From positions 1 through 47,888 of the IMG/VR virus record IMGVR_UViG_3300015371_000065: a stretch of DNA of 47,888 nucleotides. One strand, given 5' to 3'. Within the stretch, counting starts at the first letter, position 1; every line of letters starts with the position of its first letter. The notes below the pieces were generated by a model. The model worked only from the letters and a program-made list of their open reading frames with translations, had not been told where the DNA came from and made no database searches. The stretch comes from a virus. The position numbers and the translations under genes are program-made. Positions 4,062 to 23,486 of the stretch are shown here, piece after piece.

Positions 4062-4095
4062 ATTATATTATGCGTTTCAATCACTAATTAATATC
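4062..4095 (-). promoter_or_regulatory. possible promoter ahead of the nuclease/RNAP-like operon
   Basis: The 152-base gap upstream of the VRR-NUC gene is AT-rich and has a good -10-like TATAAT on the minus strand (4062-4067). No convincing -35 hexamer is present at 16-18 bases, and the repeated TCGCAG element seen elsewhere in the window is absent. An AAGGAG ribosome binding site precedes the downstream ATG. I rank this as a weak promoter candidate only. Confidence 0.25.
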
Positions 4096-8843: not shown

Positions 8844-8868
8844 ATTATGATCGATGTTTTTTCTGCGT
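8844..8868 (-). promoter_or_regulatory. repeated phage promoter motif, copy A
   Basis: In minus sense the site reads ACGCAG, 13 bases (AAAAAACATCGAT), then CATAAT. It is one of seven copies with identical spacing in this window. It overlaps the last codons of the 8868-9038 gene and drives into the hairpin at 8796-8843. Confidence 0.65.
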
Positions 8869-9038
8869 TATGGCTCGACTCGATCGGCCATCACTCGCAA
8901 GGCGTCAGCAGATATATCCTCGCCATTCTCGGCTTTCATTGCAGCCTGGTCTCGCAAGGACTCAGCTAGCGAACGCAAGGCAATATCTACTAGTTCCTGG
9001 ATCTCTTCTTCTGTGAAATCTTCTTCACTCAATCCCAT
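8868..9038 (-). CDS. small acidic hypothetical protein
   Basis: This 56-residue protein begins MGLSEEDFTEEEIQELVDIA and is predicted to be all helix, with strong negative charge at the N-terminus. The start lies inside the end of the upstream gene (14-base overlap) with only a weak CGGGA upstream. Unknown family. The end of the gene coincides with promoter copy A. Confidence 0.6.
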   Translation of the reverse strand: MGLSEEDFTEEEIQELVDIALRSLAESLRDQAAMKAENGEDISADALRVMADRVEP

Positions 9039-9192
9039 CTGGATCCCGTTCGGTTGCTCTCAACATGTCGGGTAGTGTCTTAGGGGTCGCTTTGAATTTC
9101 TCAATCTTGACGTTGGTCCAGGAAACCCAAGCGAACAACAGGCATACTAGCGAAACAACTCCGAGAATTAGCACAACCCATTCCCAGCTCAT
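9025..9192 (-). CDS. small membrane protein
   Basis: This 55-residue protein has one N-terminal transmembrane helix (VVLILGVVSLVCLLFAWV, about residues 6-23) and a short polar tail. Its ATG overlaps the stop of the preceding gene (ATGA). It belongs to a run of three coupled short genes, two of them membrane proteins, next to the Rpf-like gene. A lysis-related function is possible but not shown. Confidence 0.65.
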   Translation of the reverse strand: MSWEWVVLILGVVSLVCLLFAWVSWTNVKIEKFKATPKTLPDMLRATERDPDGIE

Positions 9193-9269
9193 CGGCGAGC
9201 CCTGCCCCAGACGCTAAAGATTAGAACGGCTAGTACGATGATGATTGCGATCCACCACCAGCCGCTCAT
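9189..9269 (-). CDS. 26-residue membrane peptide
   Basis: The frame starts MSGWWWIAIIIVLAVLIFSV and ends WGRARR, so it is one transmembrane helix with a basic C-terminus. An AAGGGGAAAG element precedes the ATG, and ATGA overlaps join it to genes on both sides. The compact size, Trp-rich start and coupling support a real gene despite its length. Confidence 0.6.
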   Translation of the reverse strand: MSGWWWIAIIIVLAVLIFSVWGRARR

Positions 9270-9406
9270 TTCTTTCCCCTTCGTGTTTGACTGGCCTTAA
9301 TTGCTCGGCCCTGTTTGGCTGCTTTTGCTTTGGCTCCTTTGCCTTTGTACAATTTCCCGCCGGAGCCATACTTGTAGCCGCCTCCACTTTTACGAACTGG
9401 CGACAT
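9266..9406 (-). CDS. small basic phage protein (KGKGAKAKA family)
   Basis: This 46-residue protein, MSPVRKSGGGYKYGSGGKLY followed by KGKGAKAKAAKQGRAI, is very rich in Lys, Gly and Arg. I know similar short basic proteins from actinophage genomes; they are unassigned but look nucleic-acid-binding. The longer reading from 9493 lacks a ribosome site, while AAGGAGG seven bases before the ATG at 9406 is ideal. Confidence 0.75.
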   Translation of the reverse strand: MSPVRKSGGGYKYGSGGKLYKGKGAKAKAAKQGRAIKASQTRRGKK

Positions 9407-9650
9407 CTGCTTTCCTCCTTGGTCCAAGGAACGCAGGAAGTTCGAGCGATCCTTGAGCGGGGATTTTGAAGTATTCGTGCAGACACATACCACGGCAATT
9501 TGGACACAAGTCGGCTTCGAATTTTTCCGAACCAGCGGGAAAGCGGGAGTCTTCTACGACTATCAAAGAAACTGACTTAATTTGTCGCTTTGCCTTCGCT
9601 ACATTGTCTGGTTCGGTGAATCCACAGCCATCACAGTGCAAACGTCTCAT
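9390..9650 (-). CDS. zinc-ribbon protein
   Basis: This 86-residue protein has two metal-binding knuckles, LHCDGCGF at residues 4-11 and DLCPNCRG at about 47-54, the usual pattern of a zinc ribbon. The C-terminus is rich in Pro and Lys. The start is close behind the Rpf-like gene with a weak ribosome site, so it may depend on translational coupling. It could be a small DNA- or protein-binding factor; no specific role can be assigned. Confidence 0.7.
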   Translation of the reverse strand: MRRLHCDGCGFTEPDNVAKAKRQIKSVSLIVVEDSRFPAGSEKFEADLCPNCRGMCLHEYFKIPAQGSLELPAFLGPRRKADVASS

Positions 9651-9656
9651 AGTTAG

Positions 9657-9977
9657 TCATGCCTTTCCACAAATTGGCCATTGACCATAGCCACTTCTCT
9701 TGATTAGTTTAACGGCTCGGTATTTCTGTTCAAGAATGCTGTTACGGTGGGGATAGCTTCTTCCGCCCACGGATTTCCATGTGCTTAACGTAAACTGCAG
9801 TCCACCAAAATATCCGTTTCCTGTGTTCAGAAACCATCTCGGTCGTTTTCCGCCCGGATGTGTTTCGCAAATTGCCATCCGGATCAATTTTGCATTGTAC
9901 GGACGAACGACCTGCCAGCGATAGTCATGGTTCTGTGCAGGCATAAGGAGTACAAGGGCTGTCAGTAGTACAGTCAT
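9657..9977 (-). CDS. Rpf-like (resuscitation-promoting factor) secreted muralytic protein
   Basis: This 106-residue protein has a hydrophobic N-terminus serving as a signal or anchor (TVLLTALVLLMPA) and then the Rpf/transglycosylase-like core: ICETHPGGKRPRWFLNTGNG, YFGGLQFTLSTW, a linker with NSILEQKYRAV, and YGQWPICGK. The catalytic Glu would be in ICETHP. Rpf domains cleave actinobacterial peptidoglycan, which supports the host call. The ribosome site GGAGG is inside a perfect 10-bp hairpin directly before the ATG, so translation is probably regulated by RNA structure. Confidence 0.85.
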   Translation of the reverse strand: MTVLLTALVLLMPAQNHDYRWQVVRPYNAKLIRMAICETHPGGKRPRWFLNTGNGYFGGLQFTLSTWKSVGGRSYPHRNSILEQKYRAVKLIKRSGYGQWPICGKA

Positions 9978-10095
9978 GAACCTCCGATGTCAGGATGTCG
10001 GAGGTTCTAAGCTGGCCCTCTCCCAGTGTGACTGGGGGAAGAGAGAGGCCACTCCCCTTCCTGTGGCGACAAAGGGTCGCAGATCTGCGGAGATC
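9978..10095 (-). promoter_or_regulatory. structured leader RNA sequestering the Rpf-like gene ribosome site
   Basis: On the minus strand four hairpins follow one another. They are GATCT-CCGC-AGATC (10082-10095), GCGAC-loop-GTCGC (10066-10080), a bulged 13-bp stem with GGCC/GGCC, CTCTC/GAGAG and CCAG/CTGG (10014-10050), and a perfect 10-bp stem GAACCTCCGA/TCGGAGGTTC (9978-10007). The last stem contains the GGAGG of the Rpf-like gene and ends at its ATG. This is the architecture of a thermosensor, riboswitch-like or protein-controlled translational switch. No known class is recognised. Confidence 0.6.
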
Positions 10096-10121
10096 CCACT
10101 CAAAACCCCCAGAGCAAAATG

Positions 10122-10439
10122 CTAACTCGACTCAACTGGGTCGAAGTTTGCTTGAAAGGCTTTGGTAGTGTAGACCTTATAACCGCGCTCTGTGTAGAGA
10201 ATCCAATCTCCCACAAACGCCTTTGTTTGCCGCGGGTTTTTCGGATTGTGAACCCGCACATGGATGTACTGCTTAGTCGGCTGAACTTCCTGTGACCGGT
10301 CCACTGGGGACTCGTCGATATTACCGATTTCACCAAAGCACCAGCGGGCAATATCGGCGAAGTTCTGCTCTGTTACCTGCACAGCATCCACGAATAGTGG
10401 CTTTCGCACATACTTGGTGGTCAAACTTGTATTTTCCAA
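10122..10439 (-). CDS. conserved phage protein (PGDYG-like fold)
   Basis: This 105-residue protein contains YVRKPLFVDAVQVTEQNF near the start, then YIHVRVHNPKNPRQTKAFVG and GDWILYTERGYKVYTTKAF near the end. This DAVQVT...GDWI pattern is common in small phage proteins of unknown function. It lies between the ssDNA-binding-type gene and the structured leader. Its 3' end is about 25 bases from the first hairpin. Confidence 0.75.
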   Translation of the reverse strand: MENTSLTTKYVRKPLFVDAVQVTEQNFADIARWCFGEIGNIDESPVDRSQEVQPTKQYIHVRVHNPKNPRQTKAFVGDWILYTERGYKVYTTKAFQANFDPVESS

Positions 10440-10453
10440 GAGAGTCCTATCCG

Positions 10454-10921
10454 TTAGGCTTGGTCAAGTTCGGAATACTTCATCTCCAAAGCATCCTCTT
10501 CGATCGTTACATAAATACTCTGAAGGTATGCTTTGACTCCAGATTTGTTGTTGACCGTCCATTCATAGGGACGAACAATCAAATCTACATTGATGATGTC
10601 AGCCCAGTCGAGCATTTCCACTTGGCTTTCATCGAGATTAGTACGACCACGGGAGGTAATTAACACTATTCGAGGCGGCCGACCTTTGAAGTTGACTGAG
10701 ACAGGAAGATAGGCCTGGGGAGTTTCCTCCTCATCTTCATTGCGTGGTCTCAGCCACTTGACGTTCCAGTTGTCTTCTGCCATCGCATGTGCGGTAGGAT
10801 CGTCGAGAAGCACAGCGAAGTTGCGATCACCTTCACGATTGTACTGGCCTTCTTTGCCTGCAAAATTACGGAAGATGATTCGAACGCCTTCCATCAGTAC
10901 GGTGTTGTCATTCGGTGGCAT
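10454..10921 (-). CDS. putative single-stranded DNA-binding protein
   Basis: This 155-residue protein begins with MEGVRIIFRNFAGKEGQYNR about nine residues in and continues with beta-rich segments (VSVNFKGRPPRIVLITSRG, VDLIVRPYEWTV) and an acidic C-terminal tail typical of replication ssDNA-binding proteins. From memory, phage relatives are annotated as ssDNA-binding. It overlaps the end of the fused helicase-primase-polymerase gene by 14 bases, consistent with a replication role. Confidence 0.6.
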   Translation of the reverse strand: MPPNDNTVLMEGVRIIFRNFAGKEGQYNREGDRNFAVLLDDPTAHAMAEDNWNVKWLRPRNEDEEETPQAYLPVSVNFKGRPPRIVLITSRGRTNLDESQVEMLDWADIINVDLIVRPYEWTVNNKSGVKAYLQSIYVTIEEDALEMKYSELDQA

Positions 10922-13900
10922 CTACGAACTCCTTAAAGGATCCGAACTCCTCGATCGCTTTAACGGCCTCATTGCTTAGCTTCTCGAAATAGGACATGTC
11001 GATTTGTAGATCAGGCATCGATTTGGCAATCTCCGCCTCGAGCCACTTATGTCCTTTAGTGCCGGTTACGGCGTAGTATTTGTCGTCTTTAACGCGGTAT
11101 AGCGTGGCTCCACCTTCAAGTACCGGTATGAAGCTACCGCTGCGACCAACGAGGCGCATGTTATGATAGTCAAGGTCTGTTTTCTCGTCATGATCCTCAC
11201 GATCCAGATACATTAATCCCTGGCGAACTTCTCGACCTTCGCAGTAGTCTCCGAACTCGAGTTCTTCTCCTGAGAATAGAGTTTTGAAAACGTACGGATG
11301 CTGGAATTGGCTTCCGACAGCCGTCCATTTACTATCTTTACAAGCGATGTAAACTGCGTCATTAACGAGACACAGTTTGTCATACGTTGTTTCGTGCTCG
11401 AATTCATACTGATACCCCTTACCGTGTTCTTTGACAAAATCGATAACGTTTGCTCCATCACCAGTTGCGTAGGGAAGTTTGACTGAATCAGTTTTGATGT
11501 GAATTACCGCATGATGATTATCTTTGAGATCGTGTTTCAGATCGATCATATAGAGAGCACCACGTTTAGCCACGATGTTGTCTTTGTTGCGATGATCCTT
11601 GAACGGGTTGGGGAAGCTTGCGGAAGTGAGCCCATAGACAATGTTGATCACAATCTTCAAGGCGTAAGCAAGTTTGTCCGCGCCGCTTTCGTCTTTTAAG
11701 AAAGGAGCTAGGCGACCATCCATCATCTGGCGGGCCACACTGAAGTCGCGGCGTTTGATCGCCAGACGAGCGTCTAAGAGGGCTTTGAATTTTTCGGTGT
11801 ACTTGCCAAACAAATTTAAACATACAATTGACGTTGGATGCATAGACGCCACGTCCAGTAGAGCAACACCTGTATAAATTCCGGGTTCGGCATAGACGTA
11901 GCCGCCTTCGCCGGGGTCTTCCCCACGATAAGAACTCTTCCCTGCGTCGAATGTGTAGCCATGGAATTCCTCACTTAGGTCGGTATAGACAAAATATTGC
12001 TGAGGGTTCTTATCGTCGCCAAAGATGATTTTGGCGGTGTGCCTCTGGGTAGTATCGTTGATGCTTAGTCCACTCAATTCGGCCAAGATTTGTCGAGCAA
12101 CGAAATCTTCCCAACGGTCTTCAAGCACGTGCTCTGTTGCTAGAACATCGTTGGCGCAATACTCAACGACTCTTGGCCAGTCAGCTTCGTCTACTGGTTG
12201 ATCATGCGGGAGATCCAGCTCCATATGGTGAATACCAAGCTCGATCTCGAACTTCTTCAAGCTTTGCTTAATCGAGCTGAAATCCCAAACGTCAGAATAA
12301 GAAAGATTGTAGGCTTGAGCGAACATCGCATTGCGGTTGTTGTCAACAACGATTTTTTGAGCCAACTCAAATAGCTGTTTGATGGTGTAGCCCAAGACTG
12401 CTGCATAGAGAATATGGTTGTCGAAACGACGATTGTAGAAGCCGACAAGCTTTAGTTTGGTCAGCGCTTCCACCTCGGCCTGTGACGGATTAACCATCCG
12501 AACAACAGTATCATCACCGCGAAACTTCCAGCAGATGACAAACAAATTTGGATAAACCTCAACATCGAAGATTGCCATCCTATCGTCGTGGACTTGAATA
12601 TGCTTATCCGACTCGAGCTCATCCTCGGATTTGAACTTCATCGTCTGCACGATCTTCATGCAGGTGGAGGCCTGGTGGGTGCTGTTGTTGGCAAAAGCCA
12701 GAATTCGAGATCGGAGATCGCTGACGTCGTAGCTCATCTCCGAATTATAAGCCTCTTGCAGAATATGCTCGATGAAGTCGATCGACGGCTTGGTTCCAGG
12801 ATGAATTTCCTTCTTCAGGTTCCGCTCGATCAGATCCCTAAGACCCTTTTCCGTGGTAATCGTCTTAGCCTTAAGCATCTTCTCCTTCTTCTTTTTAAGC
12901 GGAAGTCCTCCACTTATTTCAGCTATTGGAACCGCATTACAAAGCGTCAGACGTCGACGCAAGGATGCATCTCCAATGAAGGATTTGATCTCGATCCCTT
13001 CGGAATATACCGACGCCAGCTCGCTAGGATCGCCCAGGTAGTGGTAGTGCAGATGAACACCATCGCCCGATTTGCTGATCTCTGCATAGGTAGCGGGCCA
13101 CTGGCTAGCAGCTTCCAGATTTCGCTCCAGACTGGTGTGGCCGTTGATGTCTTCCAGATCGAAGTCAATCACAATATGTTTTTCAGGCAGCTTCACATAG
13201 TGCAGTTGTGACGTATCAATATCTGAAAGCCGGGTTTCTACTCTCGACCAGACTCGAGCTGGTGTGCCATCTTGATTAGCTGGCTGAGCAGGCTGATCCC
13301 GCATGAGAGTATCAAAGAGAGAATCAGACTCATCCATGACAAGAGAAAACGCAGGTAGATCCTCGTCGCCATCTTTAGGAGCTTTAAATTTCTCTGCATT
13401 GAATCCGAGATATAGGCTTCGTACTCTTTCTCCATCTACAAGACCTCGATCTTGGAATGAATCGAAATAGTCACGTAGCATCTCACGAATTTTGTACTGA
13501 GCCAACGGTCGCTCGATGCCCGTCTCCGCGCAGTATTCCTTGTACAAACCGTACGCCTGCTTTAAAGTGGCGTAGTCTTGCGTTCGAAATACGTCGTAGT
13601 AAGCCTCGATGAAGTTGAAAAAGATGTCTGTTTGCAGCATCATTTCCAACGGCCGGTATCCGTTGTAGTAATTTTTACCCATCTCCAAGTACACGTGCAA
13701 GCAATGATGGGCGATTGCTCCGAGCTCGAAATCGATCCGGTTCATCAAGGTTGTGTAGTGTCGAATTGGAATTCGTACACCGGTTGGATGAATATCAATC
13801 AGTCGTCGAATGATTCCTGATTTAGCATCGGTGATCTTCACTGGCTGGTTGGAGCCAATGAACAACAATGCCTCCGCTCGTGCTGTGTAGCTCGGCTTGT

Positions 13901-14675
13901 ATTTTTCGTTGATGGTCATTCGTTCGTGCGAAACGATTGAATTCAGCCGAGTGTTATCCTCCAGTTTCGACAGATCACCGTCGTGCTGAATGGCAACCAG
14001 GGGGTTATGTTTGAAGGCTTCTGTCGAGAAATTACTATCGGCACGACCGAGTGCCTTCCCATCAAATGCGGTCGTATAGCCCTCAAACAATTTATGCAAC
14101 ACGTTTAGAATCGTGGACTTACCGGATCCAGCGGGACCGTAGAATACAAAGAATTTCTGAATTTTCTTTGAGTCCCCTGCCACGATGGATCCGATAGCCC
14201 ATTCGATCTTAGCGCGTTCTTCTACTGAATATAAGGTGCCAACGAGTTCGTCCCAAGCTGAGAAATCACCCTCTTCGAGCGAATAGTTCAGGTACCTGCT
14301 CGCGTAGTCTTCTTTTCTGATTTCTGAATTCGAAAACAGAATCTTCGAATCCAGTGGGCGATTGTTGTCACTGAGATTCGCCAGGAATTTCTTGAAAGAC
14401 GCCCAGGTATTGCTTTGAAATGAGCGCATGTACTTTACTACGTACTCGATTCCTGTCTCTTTCTGCAGTCTTTCGGCTTCGGCTTCCAGGTCTTGATCGA
14501 CAAGCCGTTGGACATCATACTCGTCGCGAGACCAAAGACCTCGTTCTGCATCCCAGATTGCATAAAAGGTCCGCCCTTGCACCATCAGATCCTGAGAACG
14601 ACCGACAATGAAATCAGGGTACAATTCCATTCTCTTATCTTTCGTTTGTCTCGAACGGATCTGATAGAAATCCAT
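10908..14675 (-). CDS. fused SF3 helicase / AEP-type primase / family B DNA polymerase
   Basis: This 1255-residue protein carries the core replication activities in one chain. Residues 130-300 are an SF3 helicase with Walker A YGPAGSGKST (179-188) and sensor motif LFIGSNQP (about 271-278). Residues 480-600 look like an archaeo-eukaryotic primase domain, with VIDFDLED (502-509) and SKSGDGVHLHY (554-564). Residues 700-850 are the 3'-5' exonuclease: FDVEVYP (Exo I), FYNRRFDNH (Exo II), YCANDV (Exo III). Residues 930-1070 are the polymerase palm: LLDVASMHPTS (motif A), KIVINIVYGL (motif B), HIKTDSV (motif C). In motif C the first Asp of the usual DTDS is Lys. The start has GGGAAGGGAGGG upstream. 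Confidence 0.88.
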   Translation of the reverse strand: MDFYQIRSRQTKDKRMELYPDFIVGRSQDLMVQGRTFYAIWDAERGLWSRDEYDVQRLVDQDLEAEAERLQKETGIEYVVKYMRSFQSNTWASFKKFLANLSDNNRPLDSKILFSNSEIRKEDYASRYLNYSLEEGDFSAWDELVGTLYSVEERAKIEWAIGSIVAGDSKKIQKFFVFYGPAGSGKSTILNVLHKLFEGYTTAFDGKALGRADSNFSTEAFKHNPLVAIQHDGDLSKLEDNTRLNSIVSHERMTINEKYKPSYTARAEALLFIGSNQPVKITDAKSGIIRRLIDIHPTGVRIPIRHYTTLMNRIDFELGAIAHHCLHVYLEMGKNYYNGYRPLEMMLQTDIFFNFIEAYYDVFRTQDYATLKQAYGLYKEYCAETGIERPLAQYKIREMLRDYFDSFQDRGLVDGERVRSLYLGFNAEKFKAPKDGDEDLPAFSLVMDESDSLFDTLMRDQPAQPANQDGTPARVWSRVETRLSDIDTSQLHYVKLPEKHIVIDFDLEDINGHTSLERNLEAASQWPATYAEISKSGDGVHLHYHYLGDPSELASVYSEGIEIKSFIGDASLRRRLTLCNAVPIAEISGGLPLKKKKEKMLKAKTITTEKGLRDLIERNLKKEIHPGTKPSIDFIEHILQEAYNSEMSYDVSDLRSRILAFANNSTHQASTCMKIVQTMKFKSEDELESDKHIQVHDDRMAIFDVEVYPNLFVICWKFRGDDTVVRMVNPSQAEVEALTKLKLVGFYNRRFDNHILYAAVLGYTIKQLFELAQKIVVDNNRNAMFAQAYNLSYSDVWDFSSIKQSLKKFEIELGIHHMELDLPHDQPVDEADWPRVVEYCANDVLATEHVLEDRWEDFVARQILAELSGLSINDTTQRHTAKIIFGDDKNPQQYFVYTDLSEEFHGYTFDAGKSSYRGEDPGEGGYVYAEPGIYTGVALLDVASMHPTSIVCLNLFGKYTEKFKALLDARLAIKRRDFSVARQMMDGRLAPFLKDESGADKLAYALKIVINIVYGLTSASFPNPFKDHRNKDNIVAKRGALYMIDLKHDLKDNHHAVIHIKTDSVKLPYATGDGANVIDFVKEHGKGYQYEFEHETTYDKLCLVNDAVYIACKDSKWTAVGSQFQHPYVFKTLFSGEELEFGDYCEGREVRQGLMYLDREDHDEKTDLDYHNMRLVGRSGSFIPVLEGGATLYRVKDDKYYAVTGTKGHKWLEAEIAKSMPDLQIDMSYFEKLSNEAVKAIEEFGSFKEFVDATE

Positions 14676-14701
14676 TGCCCTCCCTTCCCAAGTCCGTAGG
14701 G

Positions 14702-15226
14702 TCAGGGATCTAGTTCCATGATCTCCAGGGCATAAGCATTCATTTGGAACCAGATTTCTACCTTTGTTTGATTTTCTTGGGGATTACGCAGAGGAAAGAA
14801 CCCACCTTTACCGTTGTACTCGTAGGTTCTCCAAATCAGAGTCTCGAGAGTCTCGTCGATACGATTAAGTTTAGCGCGACTCAAGGGATCCGATGCTTTG
14901 TTCAGTTTCAGGTTCTCAAGTAGATTCCAGGCCCACTCTTCTGAAAGACCGTCACAAATAAAAGCTGTTCTGCGACTAAGAGCGATCAGAATCTCGAGAA
15001 CTGAGATCGGTCGTCTGGGAGCTCGCCAAGATCCTTTTGAAAACTGTACGCGTAGATCCCGAGCATCTTGAACGCGATTGTCGTCACCTATCACTGTGAA
15101 CAGGAATTCCGTTTCATGCATCCGCTCGAACAAGCCTTGATACGTGTGCGGATTCCTTTCCGGAATAGCAATTTGTGCGATCAACCAGTCAAAATACTCA
15201 TAATCACGTTGTGTTTTCAGCTTCAT
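14702..15226 (-). CDS. conserved actinophage protein of unknown function
   Basis: This 174-residue protein contains YEYFDWLIAQIAIP, DDNRVQDARDLR, SVLEILIALSRR and TLIWRTYEYNGKGGFFPL. I recognise the pattern from replication-proximal genes in actinophages, but no function is known to me. It overlaps the neighbouring membrane-protein gene by 23 bases and is followed closely by the fused polymerase gene. Confidence 0.75.
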   Translation of the reverse strand: MKLKTQRDYEYFDWLIAQIAIPERNPHTYQGLFERMHETEFLFTVIGDDNRVQDARDLRVQFSKGSWRAPRRPISVLEILIALSRRTAFICDGLSEEWAWNLLENLKLNKASDPLSRAKLNRIDETLETLIWRTYEYNGKGGFFPLRNPQENQTKVEIWFQMNAYALEIMELDP

Positions 15227-16834: not shown

Positions 16835-16843
16835 CATAACTCC

Positions 16844-17020
16844 TTAGAATAGGGTGAGTTGTTCACCGTTGACTTTGACTTCTTTTTCTTTCTTTTCTTC
16901 GTGGTCTTTCCAGATAGCAAAGACTTGTTGATCGAACATCCGATCTACTCGTCGATGCCACGATGAGCTATGGGGATACAGATCCTTCACCCAGTTCCGG
17001 ATTTGGTTTATCTGGGACAT
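16844..17020 (-). CDS. small conserved phage protein
   Basis: This 58-residue frame starts MSQINQIRNWVKDLYPHSSS and continues WHRRVDRMFDQQVFAIWKD, then a lysine/glutamate-rich stretch ending GEQLTLF. The pattern of a short helix, W..RV, then QVFAI is one I know from short actinophage proteins. A GGAGGAG lies about ten bases before the ATG. It ends seven bases before the ribosome site of the DUF6353-like gene. Confidence 0.65.
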   Translation of the reverse strand: MSQINQIRNWVKDLYPHSSSWHRRVDRMFDQQVFAIWKDHEEKKEKEVKVNGEQLTLF

Positions 17021-17076
17021 CCGAGGTTAGCTCCTCCACGCTGGCTTTGACTTTCTTGGCGGCAGCACGTACTTCA

Positions 17077-17706
17077 TCAGTCGAGGGGGATTGGATCTGG
17101 GAGATCGAGAAGATAACCATCACGGATTCTCTGAACGCCTGCGCCGTGAAGATCCGCCCAACCCCACTTGTAATCCGTGTGATTTGAGGCAAGGCCCACA
17201 AGCTCATAGAGGTCGGCAACTGTAGCTGTGTCATATTTACCTACCAAATCGTATAGACGGTCGATGACTTCTTCTGCTTCTGTGCGTGAATCAAGAACGA
17301 TCTCGTCGAAGTCTTGTGCCTGACGTGCTCGCCGACTCATTGCTCTTTGTGCAGACGGCATTCTGGCGGAGGACTGCGAAGAATATCGCGTGTAATTGAC
17401 GTGACCGTAAGGGCCTGACTGTGGTATTGTCGATCCGCCTCGACGTCGACCCTCTCCGAAGAACAGACGCTCAAGCGCAGACGCTCCTGCTTCGACAACC
17501 ATGTCTTTCACCATTGGAAGCACCACGTCAAGAACGGCGTATTGCAGTGAACCTCGAACGGTGCCAGAAATGAATGTGTCTTTGAATTGCTTGCGCAGAG
17601 ACGGTCTTTTTCTTCGAACAGAGCCCGTTGTTACTTGTTCGATGTTCTTTTCGGAGCCCTGTCTCTTACTTACTTCACTATTTGGCGGAAATTCAGGATG
17701 CTCCAT
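17077..17706 (-). CDS. conserved actinophage protein with C-terminal TEAEEVIDRLYDLV domain
   Basis: This 209-residue protein has a basic, low-complexity N-terminal half with an amphipathic segment (LQYAVLDVVLPMVKDMVVEA) and a conserved C-terminal domain: FDEIVLDSRTEAEEVIDRLY, then TVADLYELVG, then DYKWGWADLHGAGV, then GYLLDLPDP. I know this ending from many actinophage accessory genes; function unknown. AAGGGAATAC precedes the ATG. A strong terminator lies immediately upstream, so it probably starts a new transcript or is fed by readthrough. Confidence 0.75.
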   Translation of the reverse strand: MEHPEFPPNSEVSKRQGSEKNIEQVTTGSVRRKRPSLRKQFKDTFISGTVRGSLQYAVLDVVLPMVKDMVVEAGASALERLFFGEGRRRGGSTIPQSGPYGHVNYTRYSSQSSARMPSAQRAMSRRARQAQDFDEIVLDSRTEAEEVIDRLYDLVGKYDTATVADLYELVGLASNHTDYKWGWADLHGAGVQRIRDGYLLDLPDPIPLD

Positions 17707-17730
17707 GTATTCCCTTAGTTAGAAAAAAGA

Positions 17731-17764
17731 AAAGCTAAAGACCATGTTTCAGATCTTTAGCTTT
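17731..17764 (-). terminator. intrinsic terminator after the 17771 gene
   Basis: There is a perfect 11-bp stem AAAGCTAAAGA/TCTTTAGCTTT (17754-17764 with 17731-17741) with a 12-base loop. In minus sense it is followed by TCTTTTTTC. This is the clearest intrinsic terminator in the window, six bases past the stop of the small gene at 17771-18019. Confidence 0.85.
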
Positions 17765-17770
17765 GCCCAA

Positions 17771-18019
17771 CTATGCAGCAGTTTCTGTCTTACGGCTCGC
17801 GTACCAGTCAGCAGCCTGGTCGACGCGTTCTCCGATGTGCTTCGCGGCCTGGTCAACGACCATCGATCCGATCACAAGCGACCCCGACCAAACCTTAACT
17901 GCATCAGCAGTGGTCTGAATCGTGGTGTTGTTCGTGATGACGTCGTTGATGACCTTCGTCACACCGAAGCTCGCGACAACCTGTGCCGCCAACTTAAGCG
18001 TGGTGAGCTGTCCCGACAT
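17771..18019 (-). CDS. small hydrophobic phage protein in its own transcription unit
   Basis: This 82-residue protein contains VVASFGVTKVINDVITNN and AVKVWSGSLVIGSMVVDQAA, then a helix with HIGERVDQAADWYASRK. It is moderately hydrophobic, possibly membrane-associated. The family is familiar from actinophages; role unknown. The gene is bracketed by promoter copy B (18046-18070) and the terminator at 17731-17764, so it is a one-gene transcription unit. TAGGAG precedes the ATG. Confidence 0.75.
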   Translation of the reverse strand: MSGQLTTLKLAAQVVASFGVTKVINDVITNNTTIQTTADAVKVWSGSLVIGSMVVDQAAKHIGERVDQAADWYASRKTETAA

Positions 18020-18045
18020 ATCAACTCCTAAAAATAGTGGGTTTC

Positions 18046-18070
18046 ATTATAGGCCGAGTTTTCTCTGCGA
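18046..18070 (-). promoter_or_regulatory. repeated phage promoter motif, copy B
   Basis: In minus sense: TCGCAG, 13 bases (AGAAAACTCGGCC), TATAAT, then GAAACCC and a ribosome site about 20 bases on. It directly serves the 17771-18019 gene. Its TCGCAG overlaps the 3' arm of the structured RNA at 18069-18226 by two bases. Confidence 0.7.
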
Positions 18071-18226
18071 GGGGCTTAGACCAGGATAGGCGAGCGAGAC
18101 CGTTCCCTAAAGGACTTCGATCATCGCGTTCCTGCGTGGACAGGCGAACGATTTGTGCCGGGTCAGTTCCACGCCGCCCGGTATTGTCGTTCCTCAATAT
18201 CTGACCTATCCTGTTCTGAGCCCCTC
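18069..18226 (-). ncRNA. 158-nt structured RNA closed by a 22-base inverted repeat
   Basis: GAGGGGCTCAGAACAGGATAG plus one base (18205-18226, minus sense) pairs at 20 of 22 positions with 18069-18090. Inside are a helix GAACGA/TCGTTC (18187-18192 with 18146-18151) extended by CCGGG/CCCGG (18177-18181 with 18158-18162), then CCTG-TCCACG-CAGG and further short stems. The hexamer GGAACG or close variants occurs four times in the interior. There is no reading frame of note. It lies between the stop of the 18236 gene and promoter copy B. Confidence 0.55.
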
Positions 18227-18235
18227 TCAGAGTTA

Positions 18236-18769
18236 TTAGTCCACTAGTTCCACTTCACCAGCTTGGATGCGAGCTCCAAGTCTAGCCAGGTCATCTTGCG
18301 GCATTTCTGCGACGTCTTTCCGATTAACGAGCTCGGGTTTAGTTATCGGCGTTACCACTGGAGTTTTCTGCTGTTGATTGGCAGCCACCAGTTTCTCAGC
18401 TTCTGCAACCATGTCTTGCGGAATGATGCCGTTGATGAACTCGGTAGCGGCGTCAGTATTCGTTACCAACTCCATAAACAAGGTCGAATAGGCTTCGGAC
18501 GAGGTAAATTCGTCTCGTAGTTCTTGATTCTTGATGAATCGCTTCCCGTCGTCCGAGCGCTTTCCATACGCACTCAATATGATGTTCTTGAACTCGGCGA
18601 TGATACTCTGGTTGTCCTCAGCGGCAACGATACGTTCCAATGCTGCGGAGAGACCACCTTTGTGACTCATCTCAAGTTCGACTAATTCCGCTTTGGACAA
18701 ATGGAAGAAGAAATCTTCACTTACTTCTTCATCATTGAAGTCTTTGTACGTAATCGTCTTTTTGAGCAC
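18236..18769 (-). CDS. possible tail-assembly-chaperone-like conserved protein
   Basis: This 177-residue protein starts with GTG in the frame (M)LKKTITYKDFNDEEVSEDFF, then FHLSKAELVELEMSHKGGL, EFKNIILSAYGKRSDDGKRF, TSSEAYSTLFMELV and EFINGIIP. I know similar proteins from tail modules, where they are sometimes called tail assembly chaperones. A separate chaperone-type gene is present at 34097-34639, and this one is 7 kb from the tape measure. GGGAG lies 10 bases before the GTG. The longer reading to 18841 would begin inside a hairpin and is unlikely. Confidence 0.6.
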   Translation of the reverse strand: MLKKTITYKDFNDEEVSEDFFFHLSKAELVELEMSHKGGLSAALERIVAAEDNQSIIAEFKNIILSAYGKRSDDGKRFIKNQELRDEFTSSEAYSTLFMELVTNTDAATEFINGIIPQDMVAEAEKLVAANQQQKTPVVTPITKPELVNRKDVAEMPQDDLARLGARIQAGEVELVD

Positions 18770-18799
18770 GCTCTTTATTCTCCCTTTAGAAGAAATTTT

Positions 18800-18836
18800 A
18801 TGGGTGAGCCCACTCGGGCCTGTCGATGTCTCACCC
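18800..18836 (-). terminator. hairpin between the collagen-like gene and the 18769 gene
   Basis: TGGGTGAG/CTCACCCA forms a perfect 8-bp stem (18829-18836 with 18800-18807), with a nested GCCC-GAGT-GGGC hairpin in the loop. It is followed by TAAAATTTC, so the U-tract is weak. It may terminate the collagen-like transcript or act as a processing site. Confidence 0.45.
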
Positions 18837-18884
18837 AGCACACTTTGAAAAGCCCGATAAGATGCCCGTGTGCCTGTTGTGGAT

Positions 18885-19856
18885 TTACGGTGCTGGCTTT
18901 ACCGTGCAGAGGACGTTCACTTCACCCGAGAGCGCAGCTCCCGAGGACTGCTTGATCGTCCAAGCATTGTTAAGCAGCGGATCGGAGTGACGAACACCAG
19001 CAGTGTCTGTGGCTTCGCTCCTGGTTACGCTACCCTGGATGTCGAAACCGCCACTGATGGCGAACTGAGTCGTCGGATCCGGACAAGCAACCGTGAATTG
19101 CTTGTCGCCGGTGGCAACAGCATTACCGGCACTGAAGACAGTCAGTCCAGGAGGACCAGCCGGGCCAGTCGGGCCAGCGGGACCAGCGGGACCAGCAGGA
19201 CCTGTTGCTCCGTCATCACCCTTGTCGCCCTTCAGACCCTGCGGCCCAATAGGACCAGCCGGACCTGTTGCTCCGTCATCACCCTTCGGTCCTTGGGCAC
19301 CAGTTGCTCCGGTATCACCCTTCGGACCTGCAGGACCCTGAGCACCAGCCGGGCCAGTAGCACCCGTGGCTCCCGTAGCACCAGTTTCACCCTTCTCACC
19401 CTGTGGACCAGCAGGACCCGTCAGACCAATCGGACCCATCGGGCCAACAGGACCGGTCAGGCCAGGAAGACCCCGCGGTCCAGTAGCGCCGATCTGACCC
19501 TGAATGCCCTGTGCACCCTGGTCACCCTTGTCCCCCTTGTCACCCTTCGGGCCAGCAGGACCAGGCGGTCCAACGAAGTTCTTCTTCGAGATCCTGATCC
19601 GAATCGGAACCTTGATGTAGCGCCGGACTTCGCCCGGATTGGTGCACTTCTGCTTCTGCTTGATGAAACGAGCGATACCGCCAAGCGAAACCGGGCCCTG
19701 ATCGCTCTGAACATGAATCCCGTTCTTTTCGAAACAGACCGGCCCAAGCTGAGCCGTTCCGCCAATACGAGGAGTGCCCGCTGTACTACCAGCGAACGCT
19801 CCTGTAGTGACCAGCGAAAGTGCACCGGCCACTGCCAGGAAAACATACTTCTTCAC
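18885..19856 (-). CDS. secreted collagen-like protein
   Basis: This 323-residue protein begins with GTG (AAAGGAAC upstream): (M)[20 protein letters not shown] is a Sec signal peptide, then an about 65-residue N-domain with two cysteines. A collagen-like Gly-X-Y tract of some 50 triplets follows (about residues 95-240, starting [19 protein letters not shown]), then a beta-rich C-terminal domain ([18 protein letters not shown]) with two more cysteines that could nucleate trimers. With a signal peptide and outside the tail module, it is more likely exported to the host envelope than built into virions. Its function is unknown. Confidence 0.8.
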
Positions 19857-19996
19857 TTTTTTGTTCCTTTCGGGGAGATTATCTTGAATTGCGAACAGCG
19901 AACAGCATGACGGCCTTTGGCAAAGCCGCACTCGAAACAGACTTGTAACTTAGCTTCGTCTGATTCTCTTTTCCGCCAAGGCTTCATATAACTCAT
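19853..19996 (-). CDS. 47-residue putative zinc-binding protein
   Basis: The frame starts [20 protein letters not shown] and has [15 protein letters not shown], giving C-x2-C...H...C, a plausible single zinc knuckle. AAGGA lies five bases before the ATG, and its TGA overlaps the GTG of the collagen-like gene (GTGA), so the two are coupled. Too short for confident family assignment. Confidence 0.6.
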
Positions 19997-20027
19997 AGAG
20001 TTCCTTCATGAAACGTTGGTGAGCTCT

Positions 20028-20825
20028 TCAATCGTAAAGAGAGCGCCTATACTCCGAATTAGGCGGTGGTGTGAAGTCGATTGCCAGACAGGGCTTCTCG
20101 TCATCAGACGTTACGGCCGAGATTTGTACCTCCAAATTGTCGTTACCATGCCAGCCGACCATATCGGTGTAAGTAGTGGGAGGAAGGCCAACCTCCTCAT
20201 AGAATTCAGTCAAGCTGGCATGCATGAAGTTGTTCAATTCGTGATTGATCCGATTTTCTGCTTTGCGGATCTTCTCTGCCGAGCTCATGAAATAGCGCCC
20301 GGTCAACATGTCGTAACAGAGAACGTCGCCCGTACCAGCGATGATAATCTCTCGAGTATCGCGAGGATTCTTCAAAACTCGCTCCTGCGCGATCTCGTCT
20401 CGCATCTTGGTAGCATCACGAGCTCCGAATTTCTCTGCTACCTTGTCTCGATACTCCTGGAAGCGTCGCTCGGACAAAGCCGAAGCAACAGTTAGTGCCG
20501 CAAGCCTTGTCGACGCAACACGATTCGCCATGACAATGCTAGCAACTGTGGTGACACCCACAGCAGCGGGTGGCAAGTAAAGATGCCAAACCAACTTGGC
20601 TTTAGCGGCAGTTGAGAGCTCCGGAGTGTCGATGACCTCTCCGTTGGATTGATCATACGCACCTTCTTTTCGGATCAGTTCTGCTGCCTTGAACGAAGCC
20701 CTCCCAGTCAAGACCGCGGTCGTAACTGTTCCGGTAACTCCTACTGCAGTCAGGATTGTAGGTAGATTATCGTCCACCAAGAACTTAGCTTTTTGAACTA
20801 GGCCTGACCATCCAGTCAAGTTCAT
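20028..20825 (-). CDS. DUF6353-like membrane protein (paralogue 2)
   Basis: This 265-residue protein has hydrophobic N-terminal segments (LPTILTAVGVTGTVTTAVLT and LYLPPAAVGVTTVASIVMA), then RLAALTVASALSERRFQEYR and a C-terminal domain with LTEFYEEVGLPPTTYTDMVGW. It has the same architecture as the 15908-16834 gene (two membrane segments, EYR helix, Asp/Tyr-rich end), indicating duplication. AAAGGTAAACT precedes the ATG. Confidence 0.75.
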   Translation of the reverse strand: MNLTGWSGLVQKAKFLVDDNLPTILTAVGVTGTVTTAVLTGRASFKAAELIRKEGAYDQSNGEVIDTPELSTAAKAKLVWHLYLPPAAVGVTTVASIVMANRVASTRLAALTVASALSERRFQEYRDKVAEKFGARDATKMRDEIAQERVLKNPRDTREIIIAGTGDVLCYDMLTGRYFMSSAEKIRKAENRINHELNNFMHASLTEFYEEVGLPPTTYTDMVGWHGNDNLEVQISAVTSDDEKPCLAIDFTPPPNSEYRRSLYD

Positions 20826-20840
20826 AGTTTACCTTTCATC

Positions 20841-21011
20841 TTAGTAGACCGGGTGACGATCGATTCCTGTCGCTGACGGATACTTCGCCAGCGCATGCTT
20901 TTCTGCGTCTCTTCTGTTCTTGCCTGACACAAATACAGACCTGCTTAGGCCAGGTGGGAAACGCAGTACAACGCGGTAGACCTTGCTATGTTTTCGTCTA
21001 GAAGACGTCAT
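20841..21011 (-). CDS. small basic hypothetical protein
   Basis: This 56-residue protein, MTSSRRKHSKVYRVVLRFPP followed by GLSRSVFVSGKNRRDAEKHA, is Arg/Lys-rich with a beta-strand then helix pattern. Its ATG overlaps the stop of the upstream membrane-protein gene (ATGA). No family recognised. Confidence 0.6.
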   Translation of the reverse strand: MTSSRRKHSKVYRVVLRFPPGLSRSVFVSGKNRRDAEKHALAKYPSATGIDRHPVY

Positions 21012-21157
21012 AGGTGAGTTGGAAACTGAGAATTCCGTTTGCGCATCTCACGCACGAAGATCCAGATCAACCACAGCCCACAGGTGATCAGGACCATGAA
21101 GCAGTCCCAGACAAAACTGAAGAAGCCGTACTTGTCCTTCTCGACGTAGACGATCAT
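21008..21157 (-). CDS. small membrane protein of the WIFVREMR family
   Basis: This 49-residue protein has MIVYVEKDKYGFFSFVWDCF, then a transmembrane helix (MVLITCGLWLIWI), then FVREMRKRNS. The ending WxxWIF(V/I)REMR(K/R)RN is shared with the 22639-22761 gene, so the two are paralogues. AAGGAGGTGTC precedes the ATG. It is fed by promoter copy C through a terminator-like leader. Confidence 0.7.
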   Translation of the reverse strand: MIVYVEKDKYGFFSFVWDCFMVLITCGLWLIWIFVREMRKRNSQFPTHL

Positions 21158-21169
21158 GACACCTCCTTC

Positions 21170-21240
21170 GGAAAAACAAAAGGAAGGTGCTAGGATCTCT
21201 TGCGAAATCCTAGCTGGATAGCTACATATCCTAAGCCTTC
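21170..21240 (-). terminator. terminator-like leader hairpin between promoter C and its gene
   Basis: Right after the -10 box of promoter C the minus-strand RNA can form GAAGG/CCTTC (21236-21240 with 21183-21187) enclosing CTAGGAT/ATCCTAG (21207-21213 with 21190-21196). It is followed by CTTTTGTTTTTC. It has the form of an intrinsic terminator or attenuator standing between the promoter and the ribosome site at about 21165. Confidence 0.6.
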
Positions 21241-21241
21241 T

Positions 21242-21266
21242 GTTATAGTGGAAGTTTTTCCTGCGA
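21242..21266 (-). promoter_or_regulatory. repeated phage promoter motif, copy C
   Basis: Minus sense: TCGCAG, 13 bases (GAAAAACTTCCAC), TATAAC, then AGAAGG. It lies just past the 3' end of the 21272 gene and reads into the leader hairpin at 21170-21240 and then the 21157 gene. Confidence 0.65.
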
Positions 21267-21271
21267 TGAAA

Positions 21272-21514
21272 CTACGCCGCTTCTTCCGGCTGTTCCGCAG
21301 GAACTGTCATTTTGATCAGCTCCACCAGGTTTGCCTTGTCGAGCATCTTCTGCTGCTCGGTCTTACCGAGGATTGCCAGCAGGATCAGAGCGAACGGCCC
21401 GATCAGAAAGCCGACGACTCCCCAGGTCGCTTTGTCACGGCCACGTGTCTCAGCCATTTTGCAGGAAAGAGCGATCCAAACGCCCAGAATCAGGATGACG
21501 AGTAGCCACTCCAT
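21272..21514 (-). CDS. two-span small membrane protein
   Basis: This 80-residue protein has an N-terminal membrane helix (WLLVILILGVWIALSCKMA), a charged loop ETRGRDKATW, a second helix (GVVGFLIGPFALILLAILG) and a polar tail ending EQPEEAA. The loop with RGRxK...W and the following Gly-rich helix resemble small phage membrane proteins linked to superinfection immunity or holins, but I cannot assign one. TAATG joins it to the upstream gene. Confidence 0.7.
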   Translation of the reverse strand: MEWLLVILILGVWIALSCKMAETRGRDKATWGVVGFLIGPFALILLAILGKTEQQKMLDKANLVELIKMTVPAEQPEEAA

Positions 21515-21858
21515 TAGAAGCAGCTACCCGGGCGAAGGACCTTCAGACGCCAGTAACCGTAACGGCGAGCCTTGACTACAGCAAAGCGCACGCTCGAACA
21601 GTACCGGTCATTCAACTCGGTGGTGCAATCGAACACGCGGAAGCGATCGTTGAGGAAGCTGCCGCGGATGTAGCCGAAGCGCTTGATCCCATCACAGAAA
21701 GCGAAGTCGTACGTGCGCTCGAGATGATTGCCGAGCCGCTCTTCGGTGATGTAGTACGGACTTCCGGGAACCCAGCGATTGGCCTGGGTCTGACCCTTGG
21801 CGGCAAAGACACCCGCCAGCACCGCCATGATGACGATGACGAGAACCGTGCTTTTCAT
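21514..21858 (-). CDS. secreted small cysteine-containing protein
   Basis: This 114-residue protein has a signal peptide (KSTVLVIVIMAVLAGVFAA) and then a basic mature domain with four or five cysteines (FAFCDG, FDCTTE, RYCSSV, PGSCF), consistent with two disulfides. The sequence RYGYWRLKVLRPGSCF ends the protein. It is probably exported to the host envelope. No homologue recognised; it is the second secreted Cys-rich protein in this region. Confidence 0.7.
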   Translation of the reverse strand: MKSTVLVIVIMAVLAGVFAAKGQTQANRWVPGSPYYITEERLGNHLERTYDFAFCDGIKRFGYIRGSFLNDRFRVFDCTTELNDRYCSSVRFAVVKARRYGYWRLKVLRPGSCF

Positions 21859-21885
21859 AATATGCTCCTTTCAGAGCCTAGGGGA

Positions 21886-22095
21886 TTACCTTTCAAGTGA
21901 GCGAAGTTTGTTCCGAATCTCGATCAACATCGGCGAGTCGCTGGGCATACCTTTACTGATGGCAGCCCACTTGATCGCTTGCCACAATTCTTCGGGGGTC
22001 TTGCCCTCGATCGAGATATGTTCAACCTGGCGCCCTACTCGTATGGTAATAGTTCCATCCTTATTCGCTGTAATCCCATACGTGATACGCGCCAT
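21886..22095 (-). CDS. hypothetical protein
   Basis: This 69-residue protein has a beta-hairpin-like start (ITYGITANKDGTITIRVG) followed by KTPEELWQAIKWAAIS and a C-terminal helix. The gene has a normal start and compact spacing within the leftward unit. Family not recognised. Confidence 0.65.
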   Translation of the reverse strand: MARITYGITANKDGTITIRVGRQVEHISIEGKTPEELWQAIKWAAISKGMPSDSPMLIEIRNKLRSLER

Positions 22096-22104
22096 GTCAT
22101 CTCC

Positions 22105-22305
22105 TTACTCGGCCTGAATGCCGGTCTTGGCGACGTGAACCAGAACCTGACGCAGCGTATCGCCGCCCATGTACGCTGCGATCACAATCACTGCACTCTT
22201 GGCGATTGTCTCGACAAGCTTGTTGTAGTCGGACGGCGTAACCGGGGTCAAGCTCATATCTGCGTCATGAACTGGCTTGACTAGGAATGACTTGTTCTTA
22301 AGCAT
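22105..22305 (-). CDS. small membrane-associated phage protein
   Basis: This 66-residue protein has a central hydrophobic stretch (IAKSAVIVIAAYMGGDTLRQ) preceded by SLTPVTPSDYNKLVET. A GTG directly upstream could add one residue; AAGGAGGTGTG fits the ATG at 22305. It begins downstream of promoter copy D. Unknown function. Confidence 0.65.
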   Translation of the reverse strand: MLKNKSFLVKPVHDADMSLTPVTPSDYNKLVETIAKSAVIVIAAYMGGDTLRQVLVHVAKTGIQAE

Positions 22306-22387
22306 CACACCTCCTTAGAAAAATAAAAAGATAAACGCAGTTGGGATTTATTCGTCTCGGTGTGGACGACGCCCGACCTGCATCTCT

Positions 22388-22412
22388 ATTATGGTGGATG
22401 TTTTTCTTGCGA
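22388..22412 (-). promoter_or_regulatory. repeated phage promoter motif, copy D
   Basis: Minus sense: TCGCAA, 13 bases (GAAAAACATCCAC), CATAAT, then AGAGATG. A weaker hairpin with the U-rich tail TTTATCTTTTTATTTTT follows in the leader (about 22320-22386) before the AAGGAGG of the 22305 gene, as in copies A and C. The TCGCAA overlaps the tail of the terminator at 22411-22448. Confidence 0.65.
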
Positions 22413-22448
22413 GAAAAAGAGAAGTCCGTGTGGGGACCTCTCTTTCTC
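22411..22448 (-). terminator. intrinsic terminator after the 28-residue gene
   Basis: A long A/G-rich stem (GAGAAAGAGAGGTCC with GGACTTCTCTTTTTCTC, one bulge or mismatch, 22434-22448 with 22411-22426) begins two bases after the stop codon at 22451. Its U-rich 3' arm merges with promoter copy D, so terminator and next promoter are back to back. Confidence 0.7.
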
Positions 22449-22450
22449 AG

Positions 22451-22537
22451 CTACTTGTGCTCCTGGACGTAGCTGACGAGGGCACGACTTCCCTGCACTG
22501 CCCAGTAAATGGCAACGGCGGTAAGTACGACCTTCAT
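22451..22537 (-). CDS. 28-residue peptide in its own transcription unit
   Basis: The frame reads MKVVLTAVAIYWAVQGSRAL and ends VSYVQEHK. A hydrophobic N-terminal half suggests membrane insertion. It has an excellent AAAGGAG eight bases from the ATG, promoter copy E upstream and a terminator directly downstream. This full set of signals argues for a real gene in spite of its size. Confidence 0.65.
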   Translation of the reverse strand: MKVVLTAVAIYWAVQGSRALVSYVQEHK

Positions 22538-22567
22538 CAGATGTTCTCCTTTGGTAGTAGTAGTCTC

Positions 22568-22592
22568 ATTATAGAATGTGTAATTTCTGCGA
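22568..22592 (-). promoter_or_regulatory. repeated phage promoter motif, copy E
   Basis: Minus sense: TCGCAG, 13 bases (AAATTACACATTC), TATAAT, then GAGACTAC and a ribosome site about 20 bases on. It serves the 28-residue gene. The TCGCAG lies at the end of the preceding terminator's U-tract. Confidence 0.7.
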
Positions 22593-22594
22593 GA

Positions 22595-22627
22595 AAAACT
22601 AAAGCCTATGGTGCAGACTCTAGTTTT
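22595..22627 (-). terminator. intrinsic terminator after the 22639 gene
   Basis: AAAACTA (22621-22627, minus sense) pairs with TAGTTTT (22595-22601) and the stem is extended inwards by AG and CT pairs. It ends in TTTTTC and runs straight into promoter copy E. Confidence 0.7.
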
Positions 22628-22638
22628 CGTCAGTATAT

Positions 22639-22761
22639 CTAGACGACGAGGGTGTTACGCCTACGCATTTCGCGGATGAAGATCCACGCCAGCCAAATCG
22701 GTCCTGTAAGGATGATCAGGATGGCATCGATCATGAAATTCCCGAATCCGTAGCGCTTCAT
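22639..22761 (-). CDS. small membrane protein, WIFVREMR-family paralogue
   Basis: The 40-residue product starts MKRYGFGNFMIDAILIILTG and ends WLAWIFIREMRRRNTLVV. The C-terminal motif matches the 21008-21157 product. One membrane helix is followed by a basic cytoplasmic tail. AAAGGAG precedes the ATG; promoter copy F lies about 30 bases upstream and a terminator just downstream. Confidence 0.7.
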   Translation of the reverse strand: MKRYGFGNFMIDAILIILTGPIWLAWIFIREMRRRNTLVV

Positions 22762-22792
22762 AACGACTCCTTTACGATAGATAATACCTTTC

Positions 22793-22817
22793 ATTATAGA
22801 CGATGTAATAACTGCGA
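22793..22817 (-). promoter_or_regulatory. repeated phage promoter motif, copy F
   Basis: Minus sense: TCGCAG, 13 bases (TTATTACATCGTC), TATAAT, then GAAAGG and the ribosome site of the 40-residue membrane protein gene. It is among the best matches to the consensus in the window. Confidence 0.7.
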
Positions 22818-22826
22818 GTTTATAGG

Positions 22827-22848
22827 AAAATCTCCCCCCGGGGATTTT
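22827..22848. terminator. compact A/T-flanked CCCC/GGGG hairpin
   Basis: The sequence AAAATCTCCCCCCGGGGATT followed by TTTT is a near-palindrome that could terminate transcription on either strand. It lies between the terminator of the 23227 gene and promoter copy F, so it may insulate the promoter. Confidence 0.5.
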
Positions 22849-22894
22849 TTCAGATTAAGAAAGAAAAAATTCAATCCCAGAAAAAAATATGAAA

Positions 22895-22911
22895 GGCCGC
22901 GTATAGCGGCC
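22895..22911 (-). terminator. intrinsic terminator after the 22931 gene
   Basis: GGCCGC-TATAC-GCGGCC forms a six-bp GC-only stem, followed in minus sense by TTTCATATTTTTTTC. It lies 20 bases after the stop of the 22931-23227 gene. Confidence 0.8.
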
Positions 22912-22930
22912 CTCCATATCTTAGACTCTC

Positions 22931-23227
22931 TCAGGGTCTCGGCATTCTTGGATTGGTTACCATAGTCCATGCTTTCGACGTGATGACGTTCCCGACATGC
23001 TCATGGCGGATAACCAGCAGGATGCCCAGCAGATTCACGGCTGCGATCAAGATTGTGTCTTTGTTGATCGAGTTCTCGCGCTTCATTCTTTCGCGCAACT
23101 CGTACAGCTTAAGCATTCTTTCAAACGCGGCTACGTGCTCTCCGGCATCTTTATCTAGTTCCACCACTTCCATGCCAAGTTCTGTCATTTGGTCAAAAAG
23201 TGGATCTGGCTTGCTTCTCCAAAACAT
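22931..23227 (-). CDS. membrane protein with charged N-terminal helix
   Basis: This 98-residue protein has the coiled-coil-like N-terminus FDQMTELGMEVVELDKDAGE and HVAAFERMLKLYELRERMKR, then a transmembrane helix (TILIAAVNLLGILLVI) and a short tail. This form is common for small phage membrane proteins near the tail module. AAAGGAG lies five bases before the ATG. It forms a single-gene unit with promoter copy G and the terminator at 22895-22911. Confidence 0.7.
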   Translation of the reverse strand: MFWRSKPDPLFDQMTELGMEVVELDKDAGEHVAAFERMLKLYELRERMKRENSINKDTILIAAVNLLGILLVIRHEHVGNVITSKAWTMVTNPRMPRP

Positions 23228-23250
23228 AGCGCTCCTTTAGATATAGTCTC

Positions 23251-23275
23251 ATAATAAGCGATGTTTTACTCGCGA
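23251..23275 (-). promoter_or_regulatory. repeated phage promoter motif, copy G
   Basis: Minus sense: TCGCGA, 13 bases (GTAAAACATCGCT), TATTAT, then GAGAC. It is the most divergent copy but keeps the exact spacing and the AAAACATCG core. It overlaps the last codons of the 23266 gene and serves the 23227 gene. Confidence 0.55.
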
Positions 23276-23484: not shown

Positions 23485-23486
23485 GA

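Follow-up and report, generated by a model that had tools for sequence, protein, structure and literature searches.

A dispersed phage motif as the candidate promoter of a phage-encoded single-chain two-barrel RNA polymerase

Which enzyme reads a promoter-like motif that recurs ahead of small genes in a phage genome? The window analyzed here is a 47,888-base phage record from IMG/VR, nearly all of whose genes lie on the - strand. A first-pass annotation had described in it seven copies of a motif made of TCGCAG and TATAAT, set 13 bases apart, which may be read either by an altered host polymerase or by an RNAP-like protein of the phage. We favor the second possibility, which is supported by the association of motif and polymerase across genomes and by co-variation between a recognition helix and one box of the motif. 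We put at roughly 0.83 the probability that the single-chain two-barrel RNA polymerase that the phage encodes at 503-3199 has this motif as its cognate promoter.

Seven motif copies in the window

All seven copies are present on the - strand, which is the coding strand, and exactly 13 bases separate the boxes in 7/7. The hexamers themselves are less uniform than had been described. Both are exact only at 18046, 22568 and 22793, while the other four are altered, namely ACGCAG..CATAAT (8844), TCGCAG..TATAAC (21242), TCGCAA..CATAAT (22388), and TCGCGA..TATTAT (23251). The small genes said to lie downstream are there in every case, as ORFs of 28, 40, 49, 66, 82, 98, and 182 aa, each with a ribosome site; several look membrane-spanning by eye. 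The candidate promoter copies are as follows.

22568..22592, - strand: TCGCAGAAATTACACATTCTATAAT, then GAGAC; precedes the 28-aa ORF 22451-22537
22793..22817, - strand: TCGCAGTTATTACATCGTCTATAAT; precedes the 40-aa ORF 22639-22761
18046..18070, - strand: TCGCAGAGAAAACTCGGCCTATAAT; precedes the 82-aa ORF 17771-18019
23251..23275, - strand: TCGCGAGTAAAACATCGCTTATTAT; precedes the 98-aa ORF 22931-23227
22388..22412, - strand: TCGCAAGAAAAACATCCACCATAAT; precedes the ORF 22105-22308
21242..21266, - strand: TCGCAGGAAAAACTTCCACTATAAC; precedes the 49-aa ORF 21008-21157
8844..8868, - strand: ACGCAGAAAAAACATCGATCATAAT, the weakest of the seven; precedes the 182-aa ORF 8185-8733

The exact pattern TCGCAG-N10..16-TATAAT occurs three times in the window, against 0.03 expected by chance. 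A loose search allowing two mismatches finds 7 sites versus 3.1 expected, which is barely significant alone, and for this reason a weight matrix trained on other phages was adopted (80 copies from eight isolated phages, with zero window sequence included). Used for a genome-wide scan, the check proposed by the first-pass annotation, this matrix picks out the seven sites and no others in the window, with scores of 14.3-39.3 bits; the next best site scores 6.1, and the maximum in 60 random genomes is 12.1.

Hairpins, some followed by T runs, lie directly upstream of several copies (22413-22880, - strand), where a terminator and the next promoter seem to abut. Because a small ORF lies downstream and a terminator-like hairpin upstream, several units of the window seem to consist of one gene under a promoter of its own.

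Form of the motif

The consensus of 113 aligned copies is TCGCA-n-RAWWWACA-n5-TATAAT-GAGACC (a TCGCA-n6-ACA-n5 spacing), with nothing conserved upstream of TCGCA. The conserved stretch is thus longer than had been described, as it runs past TATAAT into GAGACC. Downstream of the box, GAGACC is followed by a ribosome site and then by ATG; both of the latter occur within 47 nt in 72 of the 113 copies, compared with 6.6% at random. Judged by these sequence features, the motif is a candidate promoter. Transcript starts 6-8 bases downstream of TATAAT, as foreseen by the first-pass annotation, presume a sigma-type geometry, and a phage enzyme could start elsewhere. Very short leaders (P162 23034, Linda, Petito) were considered as proof of a start beside TATAAT and set aside, the gene starts being uncertain. 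A de novo search with an EM script on Pepy6 and FP_oengus returned ribosome sites only.

The polymerase and its operon

The proposed reader of the motif and the features around it are listed below.

503..3199, - strand: single-chain two-barrel RNA polymerase, 898 aa, phrog_4291, proposed promoter reader; DFDGD at 510-514
2627..3115, - strand: proposed promoter-recognition module, codons 29-191, with two helix-turn-helix units and a winged-helix-like unit
2876..2890, - strand: codons 104-108 (E-S-S-V-R) of the second helix-turn-helix, within its recognition helix; co-variation with the upstream CGC box at S105 and R108
509..616, - strand: C-terminal helix-turn-helix of the polymerase
3704..4015, - strand: endonuclease-like gene, VRR-NUC-like by our own reading, first in the polymerase operon
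3196..3753, - strand: exonuclease gene, phrog_3953, second in the polymerase operon
4060..4085, - strand: eighth site, diverged and lacking the upstream CGC box (..GAAACGCATAATATAATAG), ahead of the operon for nuclease, exonuclease and polymerase

The phrog_4291 match spans the whole length of ORF 503-3199. The metal-binding motif DxDGD is present as SGADFDGD, which is invariant in 14 diverse relatives. Among solved structures, the AlphaFold model, whose full-length pLDDT is only 68.5, finds its best matches in QDE-1 (Foldseek E 2.4e-5, prob 1.0), and the fold comparison gives a VIA Z of 9.0 over 293-348 residues but an rmsd of 5-7 A. By this model, the protein fits the single-chain two-barrel class, taken in the broad sense of the QDE-1/YonO/crAss type. 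No other conserved protein of the window has recognizable helix-turn-helix domains, and one of the N-terminal units of the polymerase resembles sigma-70 region 4. Searched against the PDB, the N-terminal model has no match below E 0.001 and gives weak hits to TFIIE winged helices.

GenBank holds 250 phage records that encode this polymerase, most of them isolates from actinobacteria. The phages come from Arthrobacter, Gordonia, Streptomyces, Lactococcus, Curtobacterium, Microbacterium, Rhodococcus and Faecalibacterium, and oral phages are also among them. At least 500 stretches in IMG/VR encode the polymerase too. The usual annotation is only HTH protein or 'RNA-dependent RNA polymerase'. In relatives, one motif copy usually lies about 940-985 bases before the polymerase, ahead of the nuclease-exonuclease-polymerase operon, and such an operon copy is also present in Petito, Pepy6, Mudcat, Linda, and FP_oengus. 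The eighth site of the window is degenerate, and its position, about -950 from the polymerase, is that of the strong operon copy of relatives.

The polymerases all start with HYGxxRxSGRYPWGSG (3125-3170 in the window), and a head-region protein of the same phages (40869-41300, - strand) has HHGVKGMKWGVRR close to its N-terminal end. These two tags resemble each other (x-H-Y-G...G-x-x-W-G) and may represent a virion-packaging or processing signal.

Association of motif and polymerase across phages and prophages

In phages of six actinobacterial genera (Streptomyces, Gordonia, Arthrobacter, Rhodococcus, Microbacterium, and Curtobacterium), each genome has 7-15 copies of the motif, placed on the coding strand of the non-structural half. 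The polymerase-bearing isolates tested, from these six genera and from the oral siphoviruses, have same-strand copies, with near-zero controls; Lactococcus and Faecalibacterium phages have variants of the motif. Arthrobacter phage Qui (113 kb, NC_070877) has 32 copies; at 37648-48012, about 27 of them fall within 10 kb, many about 300 bases apart, as if there were one per short gene. A blind search of P162, a Lactococcus phage with a 36% identical polymerase, returned TTTTACATACCCTATAATGAAAGG, which is the core of the motif without the CGC box. CHPC971 has the variant TCACA..TATAGTAG, and FP_oengus has ACGCG..ACA..CTTTATGG, which emerged only with the family matrix.

A strict 17-base pattern finds more than 120 contigs in IMG/VR, against 8 for the reversed pattern. 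The polymerase is encoded in 43 of 73 motif contigs overall and in none of the 8 reversed-pattern contigs. Those motif contigs without it that were examined mostly carry further copies of the motif, and contigs of this kind are probably fragments. Restriction of the motif to polymerase-bearing genomes holds in 26 of the 27 contigs of at least 40 kb. The exception, G057 (L080, L234-L236), is a linear 46-kb contig with 17 motif copies in which the polymerase was not detected; it ends 4 kb past the helicase gene and is likely truncated. A further 80 polymerase loci in bacterial assemblies, mostly clostridial, with polymerases 40-52% identical (prophages of Clostridia and others), give 97 hits of the motif skeleton on the polymerase strand and 1 on the opposite strand, with 1 and 1 in the controls.

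Association alone cannot single out the polymerase, since the whole genome backbone is co-inherited with it, and the conserved small proteins phrog_4303, 4282, and 4079 could be partners. Neither in the window nor in the isolates does a motif copy precede the structural genes. Judging from gene order only, late transcription would therefore proceed by other means or by read-through over the cohesive-end junction from the polymerase operon.

Co-variation of the recognition helix and the CGC box

A core matrix blind to the CGC box served to locate the operon site of each polymerase, and the recognition helix (residues 104-111, modeled with pLDDT 80 in the N-terminal model) was then compared. The set comprised 187 distinct polymerases; counts refer to those with a confident site, and are tip counts uncorrected for shared ancestry. 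G-16 is kept in 107 of 111 cases with Arg at position 108 and in 1 of 5 without it (p=4.7e-5 on uncorrected tips). Likewise, S105 or G105 goes with C or T at C-15 (p=1.8e-4, uncorrected tips). Helices with both S105 and R108 pair with CGC; S105G, found in L025, L277, L284, L317, and the later-fetched L340, pairs with CGT; and loss of R108 in L261, L282, L295, and P162 accompanies loss of the G. Exceptions are L387, which keeps the G although it has no Arg; CHPC971, where ESSVR stands with TCACA; four polymerases that have R108 but lack the G; and four S105 polymerases with T. In the held-out test, where nearly all new loci have ESxxR, L340 (EGTVR, TCGTA) came out as predicted and was the sole informative S105G case, while L387 was the one counterexample. 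Because the nearest relatives of most helix variants have the common state, several of the changes look independent. The co-variation of S105 and R108 with the CGC box suggests that the enzyme reads this box directly.

Alternative explanations

The motif might instead belong to host sigma-A promoters, with TATAAT an ordinary -10 element and the TCGCA and ACA boxes a site for an activator, encoded by phage or host, that makes up for the lack of a -35. Most actinophage and Lactococcus copies do have TATAAT or a box close to it, retaining A2 and T6 (A2 in 7/7 window copies), and the spacing to the ribosome site also fits a sigma-type start. Nevertheless, the 113 aligned copies contain neither a hexamer near TTGACA 16-18 nt upstream, position -35 overlapping only the TC, nor a TGn extended -10. 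The first-pass annotation had held a normal sigma-70 reading to be unlikely, which these absences and the drift of the box bear out, but it had also called the -10 part standard, and this does not survive comparison with relatives that have the same polymerase, where the box drifts to TTTTAT, CTTTAT, TATAGT, or TTTAAT. To illustrate, TTTTAT or CTTTAT replaces TATAAT in clostridial prophages and FP_oengus, half of the JoyLin copies have TTTAAT, and position 2 is A in only 22 of 83 prophage copies and 0 of 9 in FP_oengus, with T6 kept. Since the box is mostly TTTTAT in clostridial prophages, it is not a sigma-70 -10 element; this drift, together with conservation that continues into GAGACC, makes TATAAT a chance resemblance or, at the most, a host element only in part. 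An ordinary sigma-70 scan of window positions 8000-24000 gives fewer promoter-like sites than shuffles do, with no excess. The same core in hosts from different phyla and its co-variation with the polymerase helix also speak against host sigma-A promoters, which we regard as improbable.

Still less probable is a role for the phage protein as a factor that works on, or together with, the host RNA polymerase and does not itself start RNA at the motif. Its helix-turn-helix domains do resemble sigma-70 region 4, and co-variation shows recognition, not catalysis; against this stand the complete DFDGD catalytic motif, the QDE-1-like two-barrel fold, and a box that lacks sigma-A features in many relatives. 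We give the least credence of all to dispersed operator or stoperator-like repressor sites. One-directional, dispersed intergenic repeats do resemble the stoperators of cluster A/CA phages (PMC13313380), but the fixed distance to a ribosome site and ATG in many copies, the conserved GAGACC leader, and the terminator-like hairpins that isolate several copies from upstream are features against repressor sites.

Proposed mechanism

As a cognate promoter of the phage polymerase, the motif would work as follows. The N-terminal helix-turn-helix (codons 88-112) would bind the CGC(A/G) box, and other parts of the enzyme would recognize the ACA box and the T-rich/AT box, where they would also melt the DNA. 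RNA would start at the purine-rich GAGACC stretch. Each copy would serve a single small gene or a short operon within the non-structural half. The polymerase operon would, in most relatives, likewise be driven by a copy, creating a positive feedback loop, with the first polymerase molecules made from a host promoter or carried in the virion. A broader proposal, whose chances we put at about even, is that of a large polymerase family with the promoter-recognition factor fused in the same chain. A sigma-70 region 4-like helix-turn-helix would read the CGC box, which lies some 17 bases upstream of where melting occurs, by a simple code in which R108 goes with G and S105 with C. The enzyme would then need no sigma factor, and the N-terminal HYG..SGRYPWGSG tag may serve for carriage in the virion. 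If the helix code is true, it shows a minimal two-barrel enzyme recognizing promoters without a separate sigma factor.

Comparison with known systems

The virion RNAP gp66 of crAss-like phage phi14:2 is a single-chain two-barrel enzyme that acts early. It can be likened to the window polymerase by description, and belongs to another phage lineage. T7-type promoters consist of many near-identical dispersed sites, with conservation running into a purine-rich start. The present motif shares both traits, whereas the T7 enzyme has an unrelated single-subunit fold.

YonO of SP-beta, a single-chain polymerase related to msRNAPs, transcribes a number of phage genes, and the promoter that it reads was stated as undetermined in 2017 (PMC5467207). 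The likeness lies in a single-chain phage RNA polymerase serving a set of phage genes (PMC5467207); YonO differs in that it serves late genes as one operon and has neither the DFDGD string nor the SGRYP tag. SP-beta was considered as a further relative and set aside: the motif is not enriched in its genome, and hhalign of YonO against the window polymerase family gives a probability of 2.4% with a shallow profile. In Thermus phage P23-45, the non-virion RNAP gp64 has its own short promoter motif, derived from 5'-end mapping (PMC10770324). Compared by description, this too is a two-barrel phage polymerase with its own promoters, and such enzymes are thus already known (PMC10770324). The P23-45 motif, however, is less conserved and GC-rich, with 7 starts (PMC10770324), whereas the window family has a 30-bp motif in hundreds of copies across two bacterial phyla, with a co-varying helix.

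We found no description of the present motif in the open-access literature, subscription papers lying outside the search. With the consensus, the transcription programs of polymerase-bearing phages become readable from sequence. It also provides a substrate for the biochemistry of single-chain two-barrel polymerases, for which promoter recognition by YonO was left open (PMC5467207), and an orthogonal expression system for actinobacteria could result.

Other conserved genes of the window

A 1255-aa protein in which a primase-like part is fused to a DNA polymerase (10908-14675, - strand) is co-inherited with the RNA polymerase. Two paralogous DUF6353 proteins (15908-16837 and 20028-20825, - strand) are conserved in nearly all relatives.
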